In this document: piece after piece, positions 3,603-13,841 of the stretch
Position numbering within the stretch: the stretch's first letter is position 1
Layout: the number at the start of each line of letters is the position of its first letter
From: Planctomycetota bacterium
GTDB taxonomy: Bacteria; Planctomycetota; Planctomycetia; Planctomycetales; Planctomycetaceae
Assembly: GCA_030836185.1 (NCBI GenBank)
Contig: JAURQH010000039.1
Span: 1-64,000, forward strand
Length of the DNA: 64,000 nucleotides
Direction of reading: 5' to 3'
Program-made: the position numbers and the translations under genes
Notes under the pieces: generated by a model
The model's input: only the letters and a program-made list of their open reading frames with translations
The model's database searches: none
Told to the model about the DNA's origin: nothing

Positions 3603-5186
3603 TCACTCACCCACAGATTTCTGGCTCCACTTGCCGTCGATGAGACGCCAACAATCTTTGATGGAATTATTGTCCTGCAAGACGGCTGGTAAGCGGTGCG
3701 GACGCACGTTGTCGAAACATTGCAGCATCGAAAATCGCTTGATCGAAGCAGGAATACCCACGGACGTAAACATAGGGTGCCCCGTCGCAGGGAAAGGGCC
3801 GCCATGATTCATGGCCGGACTGACGGCAACGCCTGTCGGCATTTTGTCGTTGAGCAAGCGGCCCACCTTTTGCCGCAACAATGGAGCGACCTGATCGTAG
3901 AGGGAATCGTCCTCTCCTTCTGATTGACTGTAGATACAGCCGGTCAAGTTCCCTTCAAACGTACGGATCACTTGTTTGAGTTCTTTGGCAGAGTTGGCGA
4001 TGATATACAACGAGGCGTTTCCGAAGACTTCTGTTTGCAGCTTGCCCGGATTGGCGAGGAAGTCGAGAGCGCTCACTTTCAGAAGAGTGTTTTTGACGCA
4101 ATAGCCGTCTCCACCACCCGCTTCACCGCCGGTCAGTAGATCGGCTCCTGCCGATTGCAGAGTGATGATCCCTTCTGTCAGCCCCTTTTGAGCGCCACCG
4201 CTTAACAGTGTGCCGACGGCTGCCGCTTGAAACTTACCTACAGTCGCCTCAATGAATTGATCGGTGGCTTCTCCCGCCAGCAACAAGACGATGCCGGGAT
4301 TGGTGCAAAATTGACCGGTCCCCATCAGGCAACTGGAGGCAAAATCGGCTGCGATTTCATCACCGCGTTCTTTGAGGGCACCAGGCAGCAGGCAGACAGG
4401 GTTGATGCTCGACAGTTCCAGATAAACGGGCTTGCCTGCTTTGTCGGCTGCTTCTTTGATAACGAGTCCTGCGTGACGACCTCCCGTGTAACCACATCCT
4501 CCCATCAACGGATGAGAAACCAGCTTTGCACCATCTTCGTGATTGGTCCGATAAATCATTTGGACAAAACCGGGAGGCATGGCTGTTTCTTGAGCAGCTT
4601 GATGAGCGGCTTCCGCAAACAGACGAGACGTTTCAGGATGAGACGAATGGCCTTTACCGATGACGGGGTTCCCGGCGGCGACAGCAGCCGCGAAATCACC
4701 CCCGGAGATGCCATTGAAGGCGAACGGGAAATTGTTCGGTCCGAACACAACAACAGGCCCCAATGGACCGTACATGGCACGGATGCCATTCGCGGTGTCG
4801 ATGGTCGCTTCTCTCCAGGACTCAGACTCAGCAGCATCAGCAGCTTGCCGAAGTTGTCCCGTTGTGCGGGGAAGTTCGCCATCTTTCAGGCGAGGGCTGA
4901 CAGGCAACGCGGTTTCGGCATGAGCGGCCTTCACCAGTGCATCGGCTCGCTGTTCGATCAGATCGGCATATTTTCGCAGAAAGTCGGCAAACCGACTTCC
5001 GGGCCAGCTTCTGACCACTTCGGCCGCTTTCGCCGCCGATTGAACCGCTTCGTCGATTTCGGTCCACGGACTGACCGGAAATTCTTCGGGGAGTTGCTCT
5101 TTGGTGGCTGGATTGAAAGCATGAAAGGTCTGGGGGCCGGAAGAGTTTTTCCACTCTCCGTTGATGAGGACTGGTTTAACGCTCAT
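3603..5186 (-). CDS. aldehyde dehydrogenase, alpha-ketoglutaric semialdehyde type
   Basis: A 527-residue NAD(P)-dependent aldehyde dehydrogenase. It carries FGPNNFPFAFN (the nucleotide-binding and substrate channel stretch), GNPVIGKGHSSHPET, LELSSINPV with the general-base Glu, and GTGQFCTNPG with the catalytic Cys. The length and the form of these motifs match alpha-ketoglutaric semialdehyde dehydrogenase (2,5-dioxovalerate dehydrogenase), which oxidises the semialdehyde made when pentoses, hexarates or hydroxyproline are broken down without phosphorylation. The usual partners (a dehydratase or dihydrodipicolinate-synthase-like enzyme) are not next to it. The ATG at 5186 overlaps by four bases the stop of an unexplained open frame upstream (5183-5390), and the ribosome site is weak. 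Confidence 0.88.
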   Translation of the reverse strand: MSVKPVLINGEWKNSSGPQTFHAFNPATKEQLPEEFPVSPWTEIDEAVQSAAKAAEVVRSWPGSRFADFLRKYADLIEQRADALVKAAHAETALPVSPRLKDGELPRTTGQLRQAADAAESESWREATIDTANGIRAMYGPLGPVVVFGPNNFPFAFNGISGGDFAAAVAAGNPVIGKGHSSHPETSRLFAEAAHQAAQETAMPPGFVQMIYRTNHEDGAKLVSHPLMGGCGYTGGRHAGLVIKEAADKAGKPVYLELSSINPVCLLPGALKERGDEIAADFASSCLMGTGQFCTNPGIVLLLAGEATDQFIEATVGKFQAAAVGTLLSGGAQKGLTEGIITLQSAGADLLTGGEAGGGDGYCVKNTLLKVSALDFLANPGKLQTEVFGNASLYIIANSAKELKQVIRTFEGNLTGCIYSQSEGEDDSLYDQVAPLLRQKVGRLLNDKMPTGVAVSPAMNHGGPFPATGHPMFTSVGIPASIKRFSMLQCFDNVRPHRLPAVLQDNNSIKDCWRLIDGKWSQKSVGE

Positions 5187-5480: not shown

Positions 5481-5554
5481 GGCCCTGTAGCTCAATTGGT
5501 TAGAGTATCGGACTGTCGATCCGAGGGTTGCGAGTTCAAGTCTCGTCGGGGTCG
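5481..5554 (+). tRNA. tRNA-Asp (anticodon GUC)
   Basis: A complete 74-base cloverleaf without an encoded CCA. The acceptor arm is GGCCCTG paired with CGGGGTC (one G-U near the top, one U-G near the base); the D arm is GCTC/GAGT; the anticodon stem is TCGGA/TCCGA around loop CTGTCGA, giving anticodon GTC; the T arm is GCGAG-TTCAAGT-CTCGT. The discriminator is G73, as expected for aspartate tRNA. In bacteria G34 of this tRNA is usually changed to queuosine. It is the only tRNA I see in the window. Confidence 0.95.
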
Positions 5555-5558
5555 CTAC

Positions 5559-5620: not shown

Positions 5621-7120
5621 TCACTTCACCGAGGTGTAACGGTACATATTCGGGGCATCCGGCCTGAACAGACCAACGTGATTGTAAGGAGCCAGATCAA
5701 TCTCTAAATTTTTGCAGAATCTGGCCACTTGTTCTTCAGTGATTGATGGCTGGTCAGATAGTCGAATGATTTTGGCGGAATATCTGTTGGTCAGATCGAC
5801 GAATCTTTCGTCCTCCGCGCAGAGATATCCGGTCTCGGTTTTAGCCCCCCCCTTCCAACACTGCTCAAACTTGGTCGCTGCTGCGAAGTAGATCATGGAG
5901 AAGGCGGTAAAGAGGCGGAAATCGTTGAGTCCGGCATAACAACCGGCAACCAGACGATCAATGAGCAGAAACTCGTTCAGAACTTTTGCGGAGTAGCTTT
6001 TCAATGCCATAGTTCGTCCTTCAGAAGGTTGTCCAAGCAGAGTTTTGGCAAGTCGATTAACGCCGTGCAGTGTCTGAGCGATGCCTGTACTATGAAGCGG
6101 ATCAATAAAACCGACTGTAAACGGGAGTGCGGCCCAGTCCTCTCCGGCAGCCGTTCCCCATAATCTTTGCAGTTTCCCCGATTGAAATAATTTTCCCGGA
6201 ATCTCTGACAACTGTGCTGTGCCAATAACTTCTTTGATGATGGGATGTTGATCGAGAATTTGATTCCAGAATCGGTCTGCGGACTCCGAATCGTTCGATG
6301 GACTTCCCTGTGAAACAAAACCGACGCTCTGCAGGTTGTTCTCGAATCGAATCTGCCAGAGCCAGCCATCCTTGAACAGATGATGAATCGCGGAATCTTT
6401 GACCGGGTAGGGGTAGTTTTTAGTATCGGCTTTTTGATCCATCAGCCAATCATCAATCGGATGCACTTTGTCCCAATGGCTGTAGACGGCATGAGACTCG
6501 GTTGAAAGCTGATCGGTCCAGTCAGGAAGATTCAGCTCATTCAGAAGAACTCCCGCCGGACCGCTGGCATCAATGAGAAATTTTGCCTCCCAATTGTATT
6601 CACACTCAATTTGCTGGAACGTGAGCCGCCAATCATGCGTCGTTAGATGGTCAATTTGGGTGACTTCTGAATTGTCGAAATAGGTAACGCCTCGCTTTTG
6701 GGCCATCTCCACAAAAAACGGATCTACATCTGGGCGATACCATTGTGTATCAGCTTGACTACGCGAACGATTCGCCGTGACCAGTAACTCGTGTTGGTGG
6801 TCGACCGTCGCACAAAACCCGTTTTCCGATCCGTGCCAGAAATAGCTAAAGCCTCGTTTACAACCACACAGTAAATCGGGATGTGTTTCTCTCCAACTTC
6901 CGAACTGAGTGAGCGGTTCGAGTTCGTATAAACCGTAAGTTGACGCGATCTCACCTAGCAAATAGTCTGCCGCTGGTGTCGAAGATTCTCCAATCGTAAA
7001 TCGAGGATGCGATGTCTTATCGATCAGTCCGACGGAGAGCCCCGAAGATTGAAGGATCGTGGCCATCAAACTCCCCCCGAATCCCGCGCCCATCACAATC
7101 ACATCGAATGACTGATTCAT
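5621..7120 (-). CDS. FAD-dependent halogenase-like oxidoreductase
   Basis: A 499-residue flavoprotein starting at the ATG at 7120; the frame is open further upstream, but this start gives the Rossmann core FDVIVMGAGFGGSLMA at the N terminus (GAGFGG at 11-16) and the ATGA overlap with the preceding gene. GESSTP (44-49) and GFIDPLHSTGIAQTL (337-351) are typical of the tryptophan-halogenase/geranylgeranyl-reductase-like group. The flavin halogenase WxWxIP signature appears as WLWQIR (253-258), without the Pro; a Lys at 88 (GCKRGFSYF) could be the halogenating lysine but the alignment is uncertain. It is the last gene of the overlapping four-gene operon. It could halogenate an aromatic or carrier-bound substrate, or be a reductase or hydroxylase. 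Confidence 0.8.
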   Translation of the reverse strand: MNQSFDVIVMGAGFGGSLMATILQSSGLSVGLIDKTSHPRFTIGESSTPAADYLLGEIASTYGLYELEPLTQFGSWRETHPDLLCGCKRGFSYFWHGSENGFCATVDHQHELLVTANRSRSQADTQWYRPDVDPFFVEMAQKRGVTYFDNSEVTQIDHLTTHDWRLTFQQIECEYNWEAKFLIDASGPAGVLLNELNLPDWTDQLSTESHAVYSHWDKVHPIDDWLMDQKADTKNYPYPVKDSAIHHLFKDGWLWQIRFENNLQSVGFVSQGSPSNDSESADRFWNQILDQHPIIKEVIGTAQLSEIPGKLFQSGKLQRLWGTAAGEDWAALPFTVGFIDPLHSTGIAQTLHGVNRLAKTLLGQPSEGRTMALKSYSAKVLNEFLLIDRLVAGCYAGLNDFRLFTAFSMIYFAAATKFEQCWKGGAKTETGYLCAEDERFVDLTNRYSAKIIRLSDQPSITEEQVARFCKNLEIDLAPYNHVGLFRPDAPNMYRYTSVK

Positions 7121-8067
7121 GCTGTACACTCCGGGCAGGAGATCGAATGCGACAGCTCTTGGTAAAGATTCATGTGATGCAGACGGTTGAGACGTTGTTT
7201 GCGACATAAGACACAAGGAAAGAAACTATCAACATCCCACAAGTCCACAAATACTCGGCCACGTTTGAGTTGTAACCCCTGTTCCAACACATATTCCAGA
7301 GATTCTCCCCGAGGTGGTCTGAATTCTTTCCTGCTAGCAAGATCATCCATGATGCCATTCCCCGTGCGTGTGGGGATGATTGCGCAGCAGTTTACGTGAT
7401 GATCGAAAGCATAGCTGACTGATTTGAGTGTCCATTCGACTGCTTCTGATTCCTCCATAAAGGGTGACTTCAGGAGTAAAAAAGCTCGGGTCCGAATCTT
7501 GGCAACGTGAAGAAATTCAGCCGCTCGCTCAAAGTCTGCGAGTGTCATTTGCTTGTTGAGAGAACGAAGCCCCTCTGGGTGGCAGGTTTCCAAACCCATC
7601 GCAATTTCGAGCTTCGCAGGGGCAATCAAATCTCGAAAACTGAGACATCGATCATTGCAGAGGTTAGGATGATTTTCGACGATGACTGTCTCGAAGTCAC
7701 GGACAAGATCGGCAATCTCGGAATAGTCTTCAGGGAGAATCGCTTGGGAGTCAAAAAAGTTGCCGCTGTTGTAGAGTTTGATTTCGCGAGCTGGCTGTAA
7801 TTGATCAAGACTCCAGCGGATTTGCTCAGGAATATCACCCATCGAGACAGATTCAGTCAGTGTGTGCTTCCAGAGGTCGCACATCAGGCAGCGGAACGGG
7901 CACTCTCGATTCGTGAGAAACAGGGTCGCGACATCGACCACATCCCCAGTTGCATTATGCTCCTTTTCGACAAAAAAGCTGTATGGCCGGCGAGGGTCGA
8001 GTTTTTCCCTTTCGGGTCTGCGTTCCACGATTTCTTGAGTGGAGTAGAGAGGAAACGATTCAGGCAT
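7117..8067 (-). CDS. radical SAM enzyme with C-terminal CxxC pairs
   Basis: A 316-residue protein from the ATG at 8067, which overlaps the stop of the upstream gene by 8 bases. The radical SAM cluster motif is CPFRCLMC (56-63), followed by a TIM-barrel-like pattern: LYNSGNFFD, EIAMGLETCHPE, RAFLLLKSPFMEE and IIPTRTGNG. This resembles the group defined by TIGR01210, which includes the archaeosine synthase beta subunit RaSEA, but sequence memory alone does not settle it. Four further Cys lie at the end (CVLC at 285-288, CPEC at 311-314) and could hold a second Fe-S cluster or zinc. It overlaps the flavoprotein start by ATGA. The substrate is unknown. Confidence 0.85.
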   Translation of the reverse strand: MPESFPLYSTQEIVERRPEREKLDPRRPYSFFVEKEHNATGDVVDVATLFLTNRECPFRCLMCDLWKHTLTESVSMGDIPEQIRWSLDQLQPAREIKLYNSGNFFDSQAILPEDYSEIADLVRDFETVIVENHPNLCNDRCLSFRDLIAPAKLEIAMGLETCHPEGLRSLNKQMTLADFERAAEFLHVAKIRTRAFLLLKSPFMEESEAVEWTLKSVSYAFDHHVNCCAIIPTRTGNGIMDDLASRKEFRPPRGESLEYVLEQGLQLKRGRVFVDLWDVDSFFPCVLCRKQRLNRLHHMNLYQELSHSISCPECTA

Positions 8068-9511
8068 AAAGTTTGGCAAACACTTTCCGGTATTCGGATT
8101 CTGATGAGGGGAACAGTGACGCGAAGTCGGATTCCGATGCAGCCCCTTGTTGAAAACGGCGTTTCTCGAAAATAGGCATCTCGAAACCAGTGATTGATTC
8201 AATGCCTCGCCCGACGATCTCTCCTTTCAAAGAATACAAGCGTTCGTGGTCCCAGTCGGTTAGTTCGATGAACGGAATTCCTTCCGCGACTTCAATGACA
8301 TTAGGGAGTGCATAGGGGCTAAACCCCTTGAAACCAAGGTTTCGAGCGGGAGCCCAAGAACGGATATGGCCGCGAGATTGTCCTCCCGAATAAGTGAGAG
8401 AATGTTTGACGGCATCAATTCCCCAACCTTCCTGATAGAGCATGCAGTTATTGAGAACACTGCGAATAGTGAGTTCTGGATTCTCTTCAATAGGGTAATC
8501 TTTCAAATTTTCATCCCCGCCATCTCCGTCAACGAGCCATTTCCAGTCAGGATACCGTTGGCGGATTCCGCGACAGAGTGCCAGTCCCATTGCGGCCGCT
8601 TGCACATCGAGCGGCTTGTAATCTTCGATGATGCGGATCACCTCTTGATAATCGATTTCTGAAGCGGGAACATCAATCGTCTCCAGGAAAATGCCAAGGT
8701 CGAGTGTCTGCAAAAACTTGGCGGCTTGAGTCGCATCGGTTCCCGAACCTCCAATATTTAAGGTGAAGGCTTTCAGACGCGAGGGGGATTCTCCCCGTTT
8801 TAACATTAGGTGATAAAGGACAAGAAAGATCGATCCACTATCGACGCCTCCTGAAAACATCACGCCAACAGGATCGGCACTCGGAATCGAATCGAGCCAA
8901 TGGTGACATTCCGTGGCTAATGCACCGATGTAAGATTCTCCGATTTTATCAAGATCGGTGGCTTGCTGATTTTGCTGAGGACTAAAGAAACGTCGATAGT
9001 CGGGATTTGGATCGGGACAGCCAATTAGTTTGAGTTCTGTAATAAAGTGTGCAGGAACCATGCGGGTATAGGAGGGATGGAATTGATCGGCAAGCCCTTC
9101 CTCTTCGAGAAATGTACGGATTTCATCGATGCGTTCTGCGACGACGAGACAAGGGCCTTCTGTGCGTTTTGCGAGAAAGTATCGCAGGGGGCGTCCAAGC
9201 GAACGTGCCATTTTGACGGATTGATCTTCTTTGTGAAGAAGTGCGAAATGGCCATCAATTTCTCGAACCCGATTCACATCACCTGAACTCAATCTCTCTA
9301 CGGCTTCCTCAACCGACATATTGAGAATTTGATTGTGTTCGGAATCAAGCAGATTGACGAGTCGTTCGACGTATTGAAAATTACTCATATTGAACTCGAT
9401 ACTGAATGTTTTGTGACGGAGTGATGATAGATTCTCAAGCAAACCGATTCTCTTAGCAAGAACTGAGTGGTAAAGATCTCCGTAATCACCAGACTCAAGG
9501 CTCCTCATCAT
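8060..9511 (-). CDS. asparagine-synthetase-like protein lacking the N-terminal Cys
   Basis: A 483-residue protein. The C-terminal half is an AsnB-type ATP pyrophosphatase domain: VMFSGGVDSGS (PP-loop, SGGVDS at 220-225), VDGDGGDEN (329-334) and a Lys near PIFEKRRF (about 450) in the place of the catalytic lysine. The N-terminal half keeps the outline of the glutaminase fold (IDGHFALLHKED, LGRPLRYFL, VVAERIDEIR) but does not begin with Met-Cys, so glutamine hydrolysis is not expected. Such proteins (beta-lactam synthetase, lasso-peptide cyclase) adenylate a carboxylate and let an amine attack it. It starts inside the end of the thioesterase gene (17-base overlap) and runs into the radical SAM gene. 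Confidence 0.85.
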   Translation of the reverse strand: MMRSLESGDYGDLYHSVLAKRIGLLENLSSLRHKTFSIEFNMSNFQYVERLVNLLDSEHNQILNMSVEEAVERLSSGDVNRVREIDGHFALLHKEDQSVKMARSLGRPLRYFLAKRTEGPCLVVAERIDEIRTFLEEEGLADQFHPSYTRMVPAHFITELKLIGCPDPNPDYRRFFSPQQNQQATDLDKIGESYIGALATECHHWLDSIPSADPVGVMFSGGVDSGSIFLVLYHLMLKRGESPSRLKAFTLNIGGSGTDATQAAKFLQTLDLGIFLETIDVPASEIDYQEVIRIIEDYKPLDVQAAAMGLALCRGIRQRYPDWKWLVDGDGGDENLKDYPIEENPELTIRSVLNNCMLYQEGWGIDAVKHSLTYSGGQSRGHIRSWAPARNLGFKGFSPYALPNVIEVAEGIPFIELTDWDHERLYSLKGEIVGRGIESITGFEMPIFEKRRFQQGAASESDFASLFPSSESEYRKVFAKLYA

Positions 9512-9920
9512 TCGAGATCAGAATAAATGATTCCCCTACTTCTTTGGGAATCCGTTTTGGCATCTGACGACTTAGACTGATAAACGCCCAGTTGGTCTCC
9601 GCAACCGCCAAAACCGTGTCGTCAGCCGGACGAATTATTTTGTATTTTCGGCGGGACGTGATTTTCTTCAGATCACTGATCCATGTGAGAACCACGATTT
9701 GATCCCCCTCATAGGAGGGTTGTAGATATTCGATGAAATGTGTCCTGGCGACCCAGGCTGCATCGATTTCCTGATAGCGGGCCGAGTTCCACCCTCGTTC
9801 TTGAGAGTGAGCAACCGCCGCATCCTGCATCCAGCGAACATAGGAGACATTGTTCGCGTGTCCCATGCCATCAATGTCATTCCGCGTGACGAGATAGTGG
9901 TGTTCGTAGAGGGCCGACAT
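9495..9920 (-). CDS. hotdog-fold acyl-CoA thioesterase (4HBT/YbgC-like)
   Basis: A 141-residue single-domain protein. NDIDGMGHANNVSYVRWMQDAA is the typical 4-hydroxybenzoyl-CoA thioesterase pattern, with the catalytic Asp equivalent in the DIDGMGH loop and the helix that follows; THFIEYLQPSYEGDQIVVLTWI forms the central sheet. Such enzymes release acyl groups from CoA or from an acyl carrier protein. It is the first gene of the four-gene minus operon, and its last codons are shared with the next gene. Here it could release or proofread the acyl part of the product. There is no ketosynthase or carrier protein in the window. Confidence 0.88.
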   Translation of the reverse strand: MSALYEHHYLVTRNDIDGMGHANNVSYVRWMQDAAVAHSQERGWNSARYQEIDAAWVARTHFIEYLQPSYEGDQIVVLTWISDLKKITSRRKYKIIRPADDTVLAVAETNWAFISLSRQMPKRIPKEVGESFILISNDEEP

Positions 9921-11169: not shown

Positions 11170-12573
11170 TCAGCCGAAAAGATCCATGATCGGTTGGCCG
11201 GTGGTCAATTGGCGAGAGATGCCGCTGGCGTCGGTCGGGTCGTTAATCGGAATATCGAGGGCGTGATAGATGGTCGCCGCCAATTCTTCGGGACGGACCG
11301 GATTATGAGTGGGATGTTCGCCGTATTTGTTCGACTTGCCATACACTTTTCCTCCAGCGATACCCGCCCCGGCGATGATCGAAGAAAAGCACTTGGGCCA
11401 ATGTTGTCGTCCGGGGGGATCCTGCTTGAGAACATAAGGCGTCCGACCGAATTCTCCCGTCACGACGACCAAGGTGTCGTCCAGCATGCCGCTTTCTTTG
11501 AGGTCAGAGAGCAGCGCGGACAATGCCTGATCCAATCGTGGCAAACAGAACCCCATGCCGTAAGAGCCGTTACCGAAGGCGTTGCCCATGCCCATGTTGC
11601 CGCCGTGCATGTCCCAACTGCTGCTGGGCGGTCCTTTTTTGTCATGCTCGGCTTGTCCAGTCCAGCCGTTGACGGTCACAAAACGGACTCCCGATTCGAC
11701 CATGCGGCGGGCGAGGAGCAGATTTTGCCCGAGAGGATGCCTGCCGTAGCGATCACGAACTTTGTCCGGTTCTTGATTGAGATTAAAGGCTTGCCGGCCT
11801 TCTGATCGCGTGAGCGCTTCGTAAGTTTTGGCCCGCATATCGGACCAGTCTTTGACTTTCTGATCCTTATCCAATCGGTTGGATTCGAGTTGCCCGAGGA
11901 GTGACTTTCGGACTTCAAAACGCTGTTCGTCGTAGGCATCGTAAATTTGTGGCGGCTTGAAATCGTCCATCGCAGGGTGATTATTGGCCGAACCAACAAA
12001 GACGGGAGCATAGGCCGAGCCGAGATAGCCGCCGATATCGATATTGGGTGCGCAGAACACAGGGGGGCCGACACACTTGATGAGCCAGGCATTCGAGACA
12101 AAATTGCGCGTGCTCGGTTTGTGCTTGGCGACAAATGAACCGAGATAAGGATGTTCGTTCGGCACGCCCTGCTGGACTCGTTTTTCAGACTGGCCACTGA
12201 GCAAATTATGCATCGCGTCGAAGTGATTGCTGATCGCTCCCGGATGCGACATCGAATTGATGAGCGTAAAGTGATCGGTCAGCTTGGCAAGTTCCGTATG
12301 CATCTCGTTCAGACGCATGCCGGGGACTTTGGTTTCAATCGGCTCGTACGGTCCGCGATAATCCATCGGAGCGTCGGGCTTCATATCCCAAGTATCAACG
12401 TGGCTTGGTCCACCACATAACAGAATAAAGATACAGGACTTATCCGAAGCGACCGCGTTGCCGGAAGCATCCAGCTCGTCACTTCCCATGACCGCGCCGG
12501 GCATTCCGAGACTGAGAGTTCCCAAGCCGCTGGCAATCATCGCCTGCCGTCGATTCATCTCAAACTGATTCAT
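11170..12573 (-). CDS. DUF1501 secreted protein
   Basis: A 467-residue protein from the ATG at 12573 (GAGG seven bases upstream; a TTG two codons earlier is less likely). The leader MNRRQAMIASGLGTLSLG looks like a Tat signal. The body shows the DUF1501 family pattern: LCGGPSHVDTWDMKPDAP, INSMSHPGAISNHFDAMH, GVRFVTVNGWTGQAEHD, VVVTGEFGRTPYV, GRQHWPKCFSSIIAGAGIAGGKVYG. DUF1501 has an alkaline-phosphatase/sulfatase-like core and is very common in planctomycetes, normally after a DUF1549/DUF1553 gene with a haem domain; that partner is absent here. Function unknown. Confidence 0.9.
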   Translation of the reverse strand: MNQFEMNRRQAMIASGLGTLSLGMPGAVMGSDELDASGNAVASDKSCIFILLCGGPSHVDTWDMKPDAPMDYRGPYEPIETKVPGMRLNEMHTELAKLTDHFTLINSMSHPGAISNHFDAMHNLLSGQSEKRVQQGVPNEHPYLGSFVAKHKPSTRNFVSNAWLIKCVGPPVFCAPNIDIGGYLGSAYAPVFVGSANNHPAMDDFKPPQIYDAYDEQRFEVRKSLLGQLESNRLDKDQKVKDWSDMRAKTYEALTRSEGRQAFNLNQEPDKVRDRYGRHPLGQNLLLARRMVESGVRFVTVNGWTGQAEHDKKGPPSSSWDMHGGNMGMGNAFGNGSYGMGFCLPRLDQALSALLSDLKESGMLDDTLVVVTGEFGRTPYVLKQDPPGRQHWPKCFSSIIAGAGIAGGKVYGKSNKYGEHPTHNPVRPEELAATIYHALDIPINDPTDASGISRQLTTGQPIMDLFG

Positions 12574-12737
12574 GCTCAACCTCGCTTCTTTGCGGTTTGC
12601 TCAACAACAGGTAACTCGGACATATCAGCAAGATCACATATTAACCATCCGGGGCCGCGATGTCACTTTTTCTTTTGCTGGAAGCGAGTTTTCAGGCTGA
12701 GGCCATTAAGTCATAAATACCTTAAGTCATCTGACCG

Positions 12738-13841
12738 TCAGCGATAACGACTTTGCTGCGTATCATTGGGTGGAGAGAGAACTCGTTCGGGAACGGCGGG
12801 TGCGCGGGCTGCGAAGTAGATGTAAGGCGAGATTGCGGCTGCCAGACTCGGGCGAGAGATATAGTCTTCCCAGTTGTGGTTCTTGCCCATCTCGCGTGTC
12901 ACATCCATTTGATGAATACGATGAGCGAGAGGCCCCATTGATTGATAGTCTCGTTTTGTGAACCCAGCACGACCGGTCGCCTGTTTGCTGTTGAGTGTGC
13001 GGAGATGATAGAAGCCGAGCGCCCAATCTCGTTGGTTCACCAGATTCAATAACGCTTCCGTTCGGCATAAAGCCCCACCATATCGTTGACCGGGATTCAA
13101 CCAGTCATGATCGATGGCCGCAGCAGTGAACACCACACGAATCTGATGCCCACGTTCTACGCCTGTTGGTAAACGATAGCCTTGCACACTGCCCCCTGAC
13201 ATGAGGTGCAAAAGCGACGTGATTGATCGTGTCCCCTGACTGTGCCCGATCAACGACACGGGAGACTCTGCCGGAACCTGTTGGAGCAGGCGAGAGAGAT
13301 AAAAACCGTTCCGAGCGGCGCGCGGACCAAGGACATTGAAATCGACATGAGGCAGGAGTGTCATGGCATCGCTGGGCCAACTGTAGAAAATCACATGCAA
13401 TGGTTGGCCGGGGCGTCCACGTCTTAACCAGCGAAATGTCTTCCAACTATACTCGATAGCAGTTTGCCATTTCACATAGCTGCCATGCACGACAATACAA
13501 ACCGGGACACCGGGCGTGAGTGACTGTGACAGTATTGACTCTCGGTTCGGACAACGATTGATCTGAGGTTTCACATTGGCGGGAGGACATGGGCCTAAAC
13601 ACTGCGGGCAATCCACCGACCAGACATCGAGAGGACCACACCCGATCTGCCCATCACTTTGTGGAACGCGCCGACTACTGACAATCCAAAAACGATCATC
13701 CACATAGTTTGACACCGACGAAGGCTCTGATTGCGCAGGTGACGGCAAGTCGGCCAGCGCTGCGGGAGCGGGAGGCTGTGCGCAGGCCATCAGTGGAAAC
13801 AGTGCCGGCAAAGCCGTCAGCAAGAACAGTCGACGGAACAT
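12738..13841 (-). CDS. lipoprotein-like alpha/beta hydrolase
   Basis: A 367-residue protein. The N-terminal leader ends PLFPLMAC-like (LMAC at the leader end), which is close to a lipobox, so lipid anchoring is possible. PVCIVVHGSYVKW begins the hydrolase core, SLIGHSQGTRSI carries the nucleophilic Ser (GHSQG), and FTAAAIDHDWLNPG follows with a likely acid. A cysteine-rich part lies before the core (GCGPLDVWSVDCPQCLGPC). The fold resembles DUF900/esterase-like hydrolases; substrate unknown. It lies 165 bases upstream of the DUF1501 gene on the same strand, with no shared motif. Confidence 0.75.
   Translation of the reverse strand: MFRRLFLLTALPALFPLMACAQPPAPAALADLPSPAQSEPSSVSNYVDDRFWIVSSRRVPQSDGQIGCGPLDVWSVDCPQCLGPCPPANVKPQINRCPNRESILSQSLTPGVPVCIVVHGSYVKWQTAIEYSWKTFRWLRRGRPGQPLHVIFYSWPSDAMTLLPHVDFNVLGPRAARNGFYLSRLLQQVPAESPVSLIGHSQGTRSITSLLHLMSGGSVQGYRLPTGVERGHQIRVVFTAAAIDHDWLNPGQRYGGALCRTEALLNLVNQRDWALGFYHLRTLNSKQATGRAGFTKRDYQSMGPLAHRIHQMDVTREMGKNHNWEDYISRPSLAAAISPYIYFAARAPAVPERVLSPPNDTQQSRYR

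Follow-up and report, generated by a model that had tools for sequence, protein, structure and literature searches.

Three genes of a planctomycete, encoding an AsnB-like ligase that lacks the glutaminase part (ASN), a radical SAM enzyme resembling RaSEA (RSAM), and a halogenase-like flavoprotein (FAD), form a conserved set. These genes are inherited together in several phyla and, in all genomes checked, only alongside a large family of envelope proteins, the UnbV/ASPIC family, which suggests a modification, cofactor, or metabolite that has yet to be described. The sequence-only reading of the window, i.e. the whole stretch of 64,000 nucleotides analyzed here, had proposed a unit of four genes, the fourth encoding an acyl thioesterase (TE). 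The conserved unit comprises three genes, not four: the finding is real and broader than that reading showed, with TE out of the core, and the function discussed below is put forward as a hypothesis. The coordinates of the genes are gathered in Table 1.

Table 1. Genes of the cassette and neighboring features in the window
Feature	Position	Strand	Description
TE	9495..9920	-	hot-dog acyl thioesterase (4HBT_2 / Acyl-ACP_TE), upstream of ASN, co-directional, outside the conserved cassette
ASN	8060..9388	-	glutaminase-less AsnB-like amide-forming ligase, 442 aa from the conserved ATG; longest ORF to 9511
RSAM	7117..8067	-	RaSEA-like radical SAM enzyme, 316 aa; longest ORF 7117-8202
FAD	5621..7120	-	PltM-like, halogenase-like flavoprotein, 499 aa; longest ORF 5621-7216
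tRNA-Asp (GUC)	5481..5555		just downstream of the cassette; sole tRNA in the window
Aldehyde dehydrogenase gene	3603..5186	-	527 aa, beyond tRNA-Asp

All four ORFs are found on the minus strand, where they had been placed. The overlaps between ASN and RSAM (8 bases; ASN stop at 8060, RSAM ATG at 8067) and between RSAM and FAD (4 bases; RSAM stop at 7117, FAD ATG at 7120) are real. In contrast, the 17-base overlap between TE and ASN is a start-codon artefact: the alignments place the family start of ASN at the ATG at 9388, leaving a gap of 106 bases, and do not support an upstream start, although open sequence extends further upstream of the aligned start in a few homologues. In the congener locus L031, this overlap is absent whichever start is used. 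TE itself matches the Pfam hot-dog families 4HBT_2 and Acyl-ACP_TE above cut-off (8.9e-13 and 3.7e-12), in agreement with its earlier assignment, and stays below the cut-off of the YbgC/FadM family TIGR00051 (36.8 vs 68.7 bits). Among the 22 planctomycete neighborhoods compared, it adjoins ASN only in the window and in L031; TE was thus rejected as a core member, its adjacency to the cassette being seen only within the window's own genus. The joint conservation of all four families, which the sequence-only reading had set as its own test, therefore holds across phyla for ASN, RSAM, and FAD and fails for TE. The acyl part of the small molecule then envisaged stemmed from the inclusion of this thioesterase.

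ASN matches the Pfam Asn_synthase family (1.5e-11, above cut-off) and, as anticipated, is devoid of a glutaminase: alignment with E. coli AsnB reveals no counterpart of residues 1-83, so that the class II glutaminase N-terminus with its catalytic Cys1 is missing. The synthetase domain retains the PP-loop SGG[VI]DS and the family Lys409, equivalent to AsnB Lys449. The predicted model (pLDDT 88.9) is structurally as close to AsnB (Z 25.6, 3.3 A, 363 residues) as to beta-lactam synthetase (Z 25.2, 3.5 A, 372 residues), and the hydroxyamidotransferase TsnB9 is among the other fold matches; searching the PDB sequences with a profile of ASN did not return any match at 1e-5. ASN shares with AsnB and with the beta-lactam/carbapenam synthetases the fold over most of its length, the PP-loop, and a G-[D/E]-G-x-DE motif, but differs from AsnB, beyond the missing Cys1 region, by its ~20% identity, its length of 442 residues, and its location beside RSAM and FAD. 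ASN is 58-84% identical to its homologues, with a mean column identity of 69%, and is under unusual constraint.

RSAM remains under the Pfam cut-off (20.6 vs 29.5) and matches TIGR01210, the RaSEA family of archaeosine biosynthesis, at 6.6e-30. The CX3CX2C motif (C56/C60/C63, all three invariant in 53 homologues) and the radical SAM fold of the predicted model (pLDDT 96.6) assign it to the radical SAM superfamily. Among its fold matches, queuine lyase ranks first (Z 17.7, 3.1 A, 216 residues), narrowly ahead of biotin synthase, Elp3, and HydE. The extra cysteines noticed earlier form a C-terminal CX2C...CX2C pair (C285, C288, C311, and C314), and all four are kept in 45 of the 53 homologues. 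RSAM thus exhibits clear sequence homology to RaSEA together with its CX3CX2C motif, but it reaches half the curated score (104.4 vs 212 bits), is bacterial, and carries the additional C-terminal pair, and no archaeosine context was seen. Distant homologues (26-28% identity) are encoded on two Streptomyces plasmids (residing at 11923-13038 in both L027 and L028), in a cluster with P450, SHMT, carbamoyltransferase, and heptose genes.

Regarding FAD, it matches Pfam Trp_halogenase above cut-off (1.5e-15), in line with the class proposed for it, and its closest solved relative is the phenol halogenase PltM (1.5e-39), with the catalytic lysine aligned. This residue, Lys88, corresponds to the halogenase lysine located between the flavin and the substrate site and is invariant in an alignment of 38 sequences. 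FAD hence resembles the PltM and CtcP-type flavin-dependent halogenases by its catalytic lysine, its FAD motif, and its WxW. However, WxWxIP is replaced by W253xW255x[L/I][mostly R]F, i.e. the Ile-Pro pair mostly gives way to Leu-Arg and the proline occurs in 2 of the 38 sequences. The quinohemoprotein maturases QhpG, GoxB, and LodB belong to the same flavoprotein superfamily, but FAD scores 61.8, 51.6, and 45.4 bits against their respective cut-offs of 240, 400, and 400. QhpG-type systems comprise a flavoprotein and a radical SAM enzyme acting on a protein substrate; to our knowledge, no AsnB-like partner occurs in quinohemoprotein maturase systems.

Of 392 planctomycete genomes, 23 have RSAM, with a weak match in a single genome of a distant lineage; ASN occurs in exactly the remaining 22 (hypergeometric ~1e-36 for their co-occurrence). 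The two genes are adjacent in 19 of these 22 carriers and unlinked in three (G087, G216, and G365). FAD accompanies them in 21 carriers, with linkage in 9 of these but not in the other 12, and is absent only from G365, while none of 18 planctomycete non-carriers has it at E<1e-130. A search for divergent RSAM in non-carriers returned a single weak match (G167, 6.4e-7). Scanning named genomes with ASN identifies 80 loci in Planctomycetota, Bacteroidota, Acidobacteria, Marinimicrobia, and others, with RSAM nearby in 50 and FAD in 36, as counted from a listing in which many contigs are cut. In Bacteroidota, ASN is found in 18 of 296 genomes, and the three genes occur together in all 17 carriers with enough sequence. 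Their order is identical in Planctomycetota and Bacteroidota, with gaps mostly below 40 bases, and since the conservation extends across phyla, chance is excluded for this three-gene part. In a further 36 carriers, FAD is missing from the ASN locus; 27 of them have an orthologue elsewhere in the genome and nine have none. FAD orthologues are also missing from 28 UnbV/BIG genomes that do not possess the ASN-RSAM pair, bar two divergent homologues (L137 9038 in G266 and L138 9202 in G361), both in planctomycetes that have BIG and neither ASN nor RSAM. In three Bacteroidota loci, a gene of ~500 residues lies on the opposite strand between ASN and RSAM (L164 10712-12217, L165 7662-9119, and L169 7523-9016).

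No transporter, regulator, ketosynthase, or carrier protein recurs constantly in the neighborhoods compared. A RiPP precursor peptide was sought within 1.5 kb among sense-strand ORFs of 18-110 residues, and no conserved candidate was recognized; the recurrent short ORFs near the trio looked antisense to known genes. The open-access papers searched do not describe the trio, which bears out the earlier view that this is not a standard pathway, and none of them links UnbV with a radical SAM enzyme or reports the enzyme combination in planctomycetes.

Beyond the trio itself, the recurrent neighbors that stand out are UnbV_ASPIC/FG-GAP proteins, the others belonging to widespread planctomycete families or reflecting local synteny. 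The UnbV/ASPIC envelope proteins are kin of the human cartilage protein CRTAC1. The window's genome encodes 13 UnbV_ASPIC domains, and each carrier checked has at least 3 (4-17 in 22 planctomycetes, 3-22 in 24 genomes of various phyla, and 4-19 in 18 Bacteroidota). Most non-carriers have few such domains or lack them altogether, G024, G266, G167, and G377 being exceptions. In Bacteroidota, at least 4 domains are found in 18/18 carriers vs ~41/278 non-carriers (Fisher 2e-14), and UnbV_ASPIC-rich planctomycetes amount to 22/22 carriers vs 4/18 non-carriers (Fisher 1e-7), both tests ignoring phylogeny and the threshold of 4 having been picked after the counts were seen. The contrast persists within genera: in g4, G087 has 10 domains vs 0 in G105, and in g18, G333 has 7 vs 0, 0, and 1 in the others. 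Of 16 unselected Bacteroidota trio loci of ~20 kb each, 4 contain UnbV genes, where 0.4 would be expected; in planctomycetes, UnbV genes adjoin the trio in 1 of 22 loci. Alignment of the UnbV domains from carriers and non-carriers displays no obvious difference by eye.

One of the associated proteins, BIG, represents a single family of ~1200 residues that combines TPRs and FG-GAP repeats with a truncated UnbV domain and, at the C-terminus, a conserved domain of ~430 residues. In a search covering 80 genomes, BIG was found, usually as one copy, in 39/39 carriers tested (22/22 planctomycetes and 17/17 Bacteroidota), but also without the trio in 5/18 planctomycetes and in 11/23 tested UnbV-rich non-carriers of the Bacteroidota. 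The dependence is therefore one-way: the trio implies BIG, while BIG does not imply the trio. In Maribacter luteus (L127), BIG, UnbV, ASN, and RSAM follow each other with gaps of 3, 35, and -8 bases and look like one operon. The UnbV/BIG neighborhoods contain cytochromes c554, an RnfD/NqrB-like protein, and an azurin-like protein. BIG as a direct substrate with a carrier-specific residue was considered and rejected, as no alignment column splits 24 carrier from 7 non-carrier sequences. The BIG copy of the window's genome (G000) is located on contig C102 (L207 827-4477), and its C-terminal domain gave no Pfam match.

Since the trio is found only with UnbV/BIG proteins, it probably makes or attaches something that those proteins use. 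We tentatively propose, with confidence just short of evenly balanced, that ASN, RSAM, and FAD constitute one conserved pathway whose single product serves the UnbV_ASPIC/BIG envelope system. The reactions and the use of the product are modeled on family knowledge, the three proteins acting as consecutive enzymes in the cytosol. ASN would activate a carboxylate with ATP, as an acyl-adenylate, and join it to an amine or to ammonia, the nitrogen not coming from glutamine. RSAM would then cleave SAM to a 5'-deoxyadenosyl radical and bring about a rearrangement or cleavage of this amide, perhaps a C-N cleavage as in archaeosine synthesis, and FAD would oxidize or halogenate an aromatic ring of the intermediate, via Lys88 if it is a halogenase. 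The product may be a small molecule resembling a cofactor or a modification carried by a protein, used outside the cytoplasm by the UnbV_ASPIC/BIG system, and such a use would explain why the trio is found only in genomes with that system. Several observations count against a pathway serving UnbV/BIG. The proposed users are probably exported, while inspection of ASN, RSAM, and FAD reveals no obvious signal peptide; BIG and UnbV occur without the trio, no BIG position marks carriers, and UnbV adjacency is rare in planctomycetes. The nine carriers devoid of FAD and the distant RSAM homologues in unrelated Streptomyces gene clusters weigh in the same direction. The more specific version, in which the trio is a new type of maturation system that supplies BIG and the bacterial UnbV_ASPIC/FG-GAP (CRTAC1-like) proteins with a required redox cofactor, itself new, or with a protein-derived modification, we consider unlikely as it stands. 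If true, the widespread UnbV_ASPIC/CRTAC1-like family would gain a chemical function. Through the trio, the role of bacterial CRTAC1-like proteins could be put to the test by deleting single genes in cultured members of the Bacteroidota and planctomycetes.

The main competing explanation sees the product as a small molecule that diffuses freely, an oxidized or halogenated aromatic amide acting as a signal or an antimicrobial, in which case the UnbV association would be ecological and TE a genus-level addition; we rate it as doubtful, yet a serious contender. The enzyme classes are typical of natural-product pathways, the kinship of FAD with PltM fits, transporters such as MFS adjoin a few loci, and the ammosamide cluster provides a precedent, as an AsnB-like enzyme and a halogenase participate in that biosynthesis within one cluster (PMC12715798). 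On the other hand, just three genes are conserved with none of the constant accessory genes sought above, the conservation of ASN is far above expectation for a diversifying metabolite pathway, the genes are co-inherited though often unlinked, and the UnbV/BIG association is consistent. Given how constrained ASN is and how often the genes are unlinked, one fixed product fits better than a diversifying metabolite, which is an argument rather than a demonstration.

Two further readings start from features of RSAM and ASN. The trio could modify a nucleic acid, e.g. a 7-deazaguanine-type tRNA base, with RSAM acting like the archaeosine synthase RaSEA, to which it is related by its TIGR01210 match. 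The fold comparison, in which queuine lyase ranks slightly above several others and Elp3 also appears, points the same way, as does the tRNA-Asp downstream of the cassette, tRNA-Asp being a queuosine tRNA. However, the RaSEA match is below cut-off, the adjacent tRNA-Asp is an observation from this one window, the trio is patchy within genera, and FAD- or ASN-type enzymes are not known to us in such a role, which also counts against this reading; altogether, we deem it very unlikely. Alternatively, ASN and RSAM may be a functional pair with FAD as an accessory, serving hydrazine-synthase-like (HZS-like) complexes and handling a reactive N-nucleophile, e.g. hydroxylamine or hydrazine, instead of glutamine-derived ammonia. 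The FAD-less carriers and the TsnB9 fold match are compatible with such a pair, and CRTAC1 genes have been reported in clusters with HZS-like genes (PMC12758564). Beside FAD-less ASN-RSAM pairs of Bacteroidota and Marinimicrobia, an HZS alpha-like gene (L100 2450-3889) and a gene for a propeller-plus-cytochrome protein (L121 3-1901) are found; in L100, the HZS_alpha homologue and a propeller-cytochrome protein adjoin a UnbV-UnbV-ASN-RSAM-BIG array, and the L121 protein is similar. These loci share with the published clusters the UnbV/CRTAC1-type genes and, in L100 and possibly L121, the HZS-like ones, but such neighbors are confined to these two loci, most trio loci have no HZS-like genes nearby, including the annotated neighborhoods of the FAD-bearing majority, and that paper does not mention radical SAM enzymes. 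We therefore hold the HZS-related pair to be highly improbable and retain the single-product pathway for UnbV/BIG as the preferred reading.

Lastly, an aldehyde dehydrogenase gene lies beyond tRNA-Asp in the window, and in three g3 genomes (L131, L132, and L142), where FAD is unlinked, one is also found next to FAD, possibly by chance.
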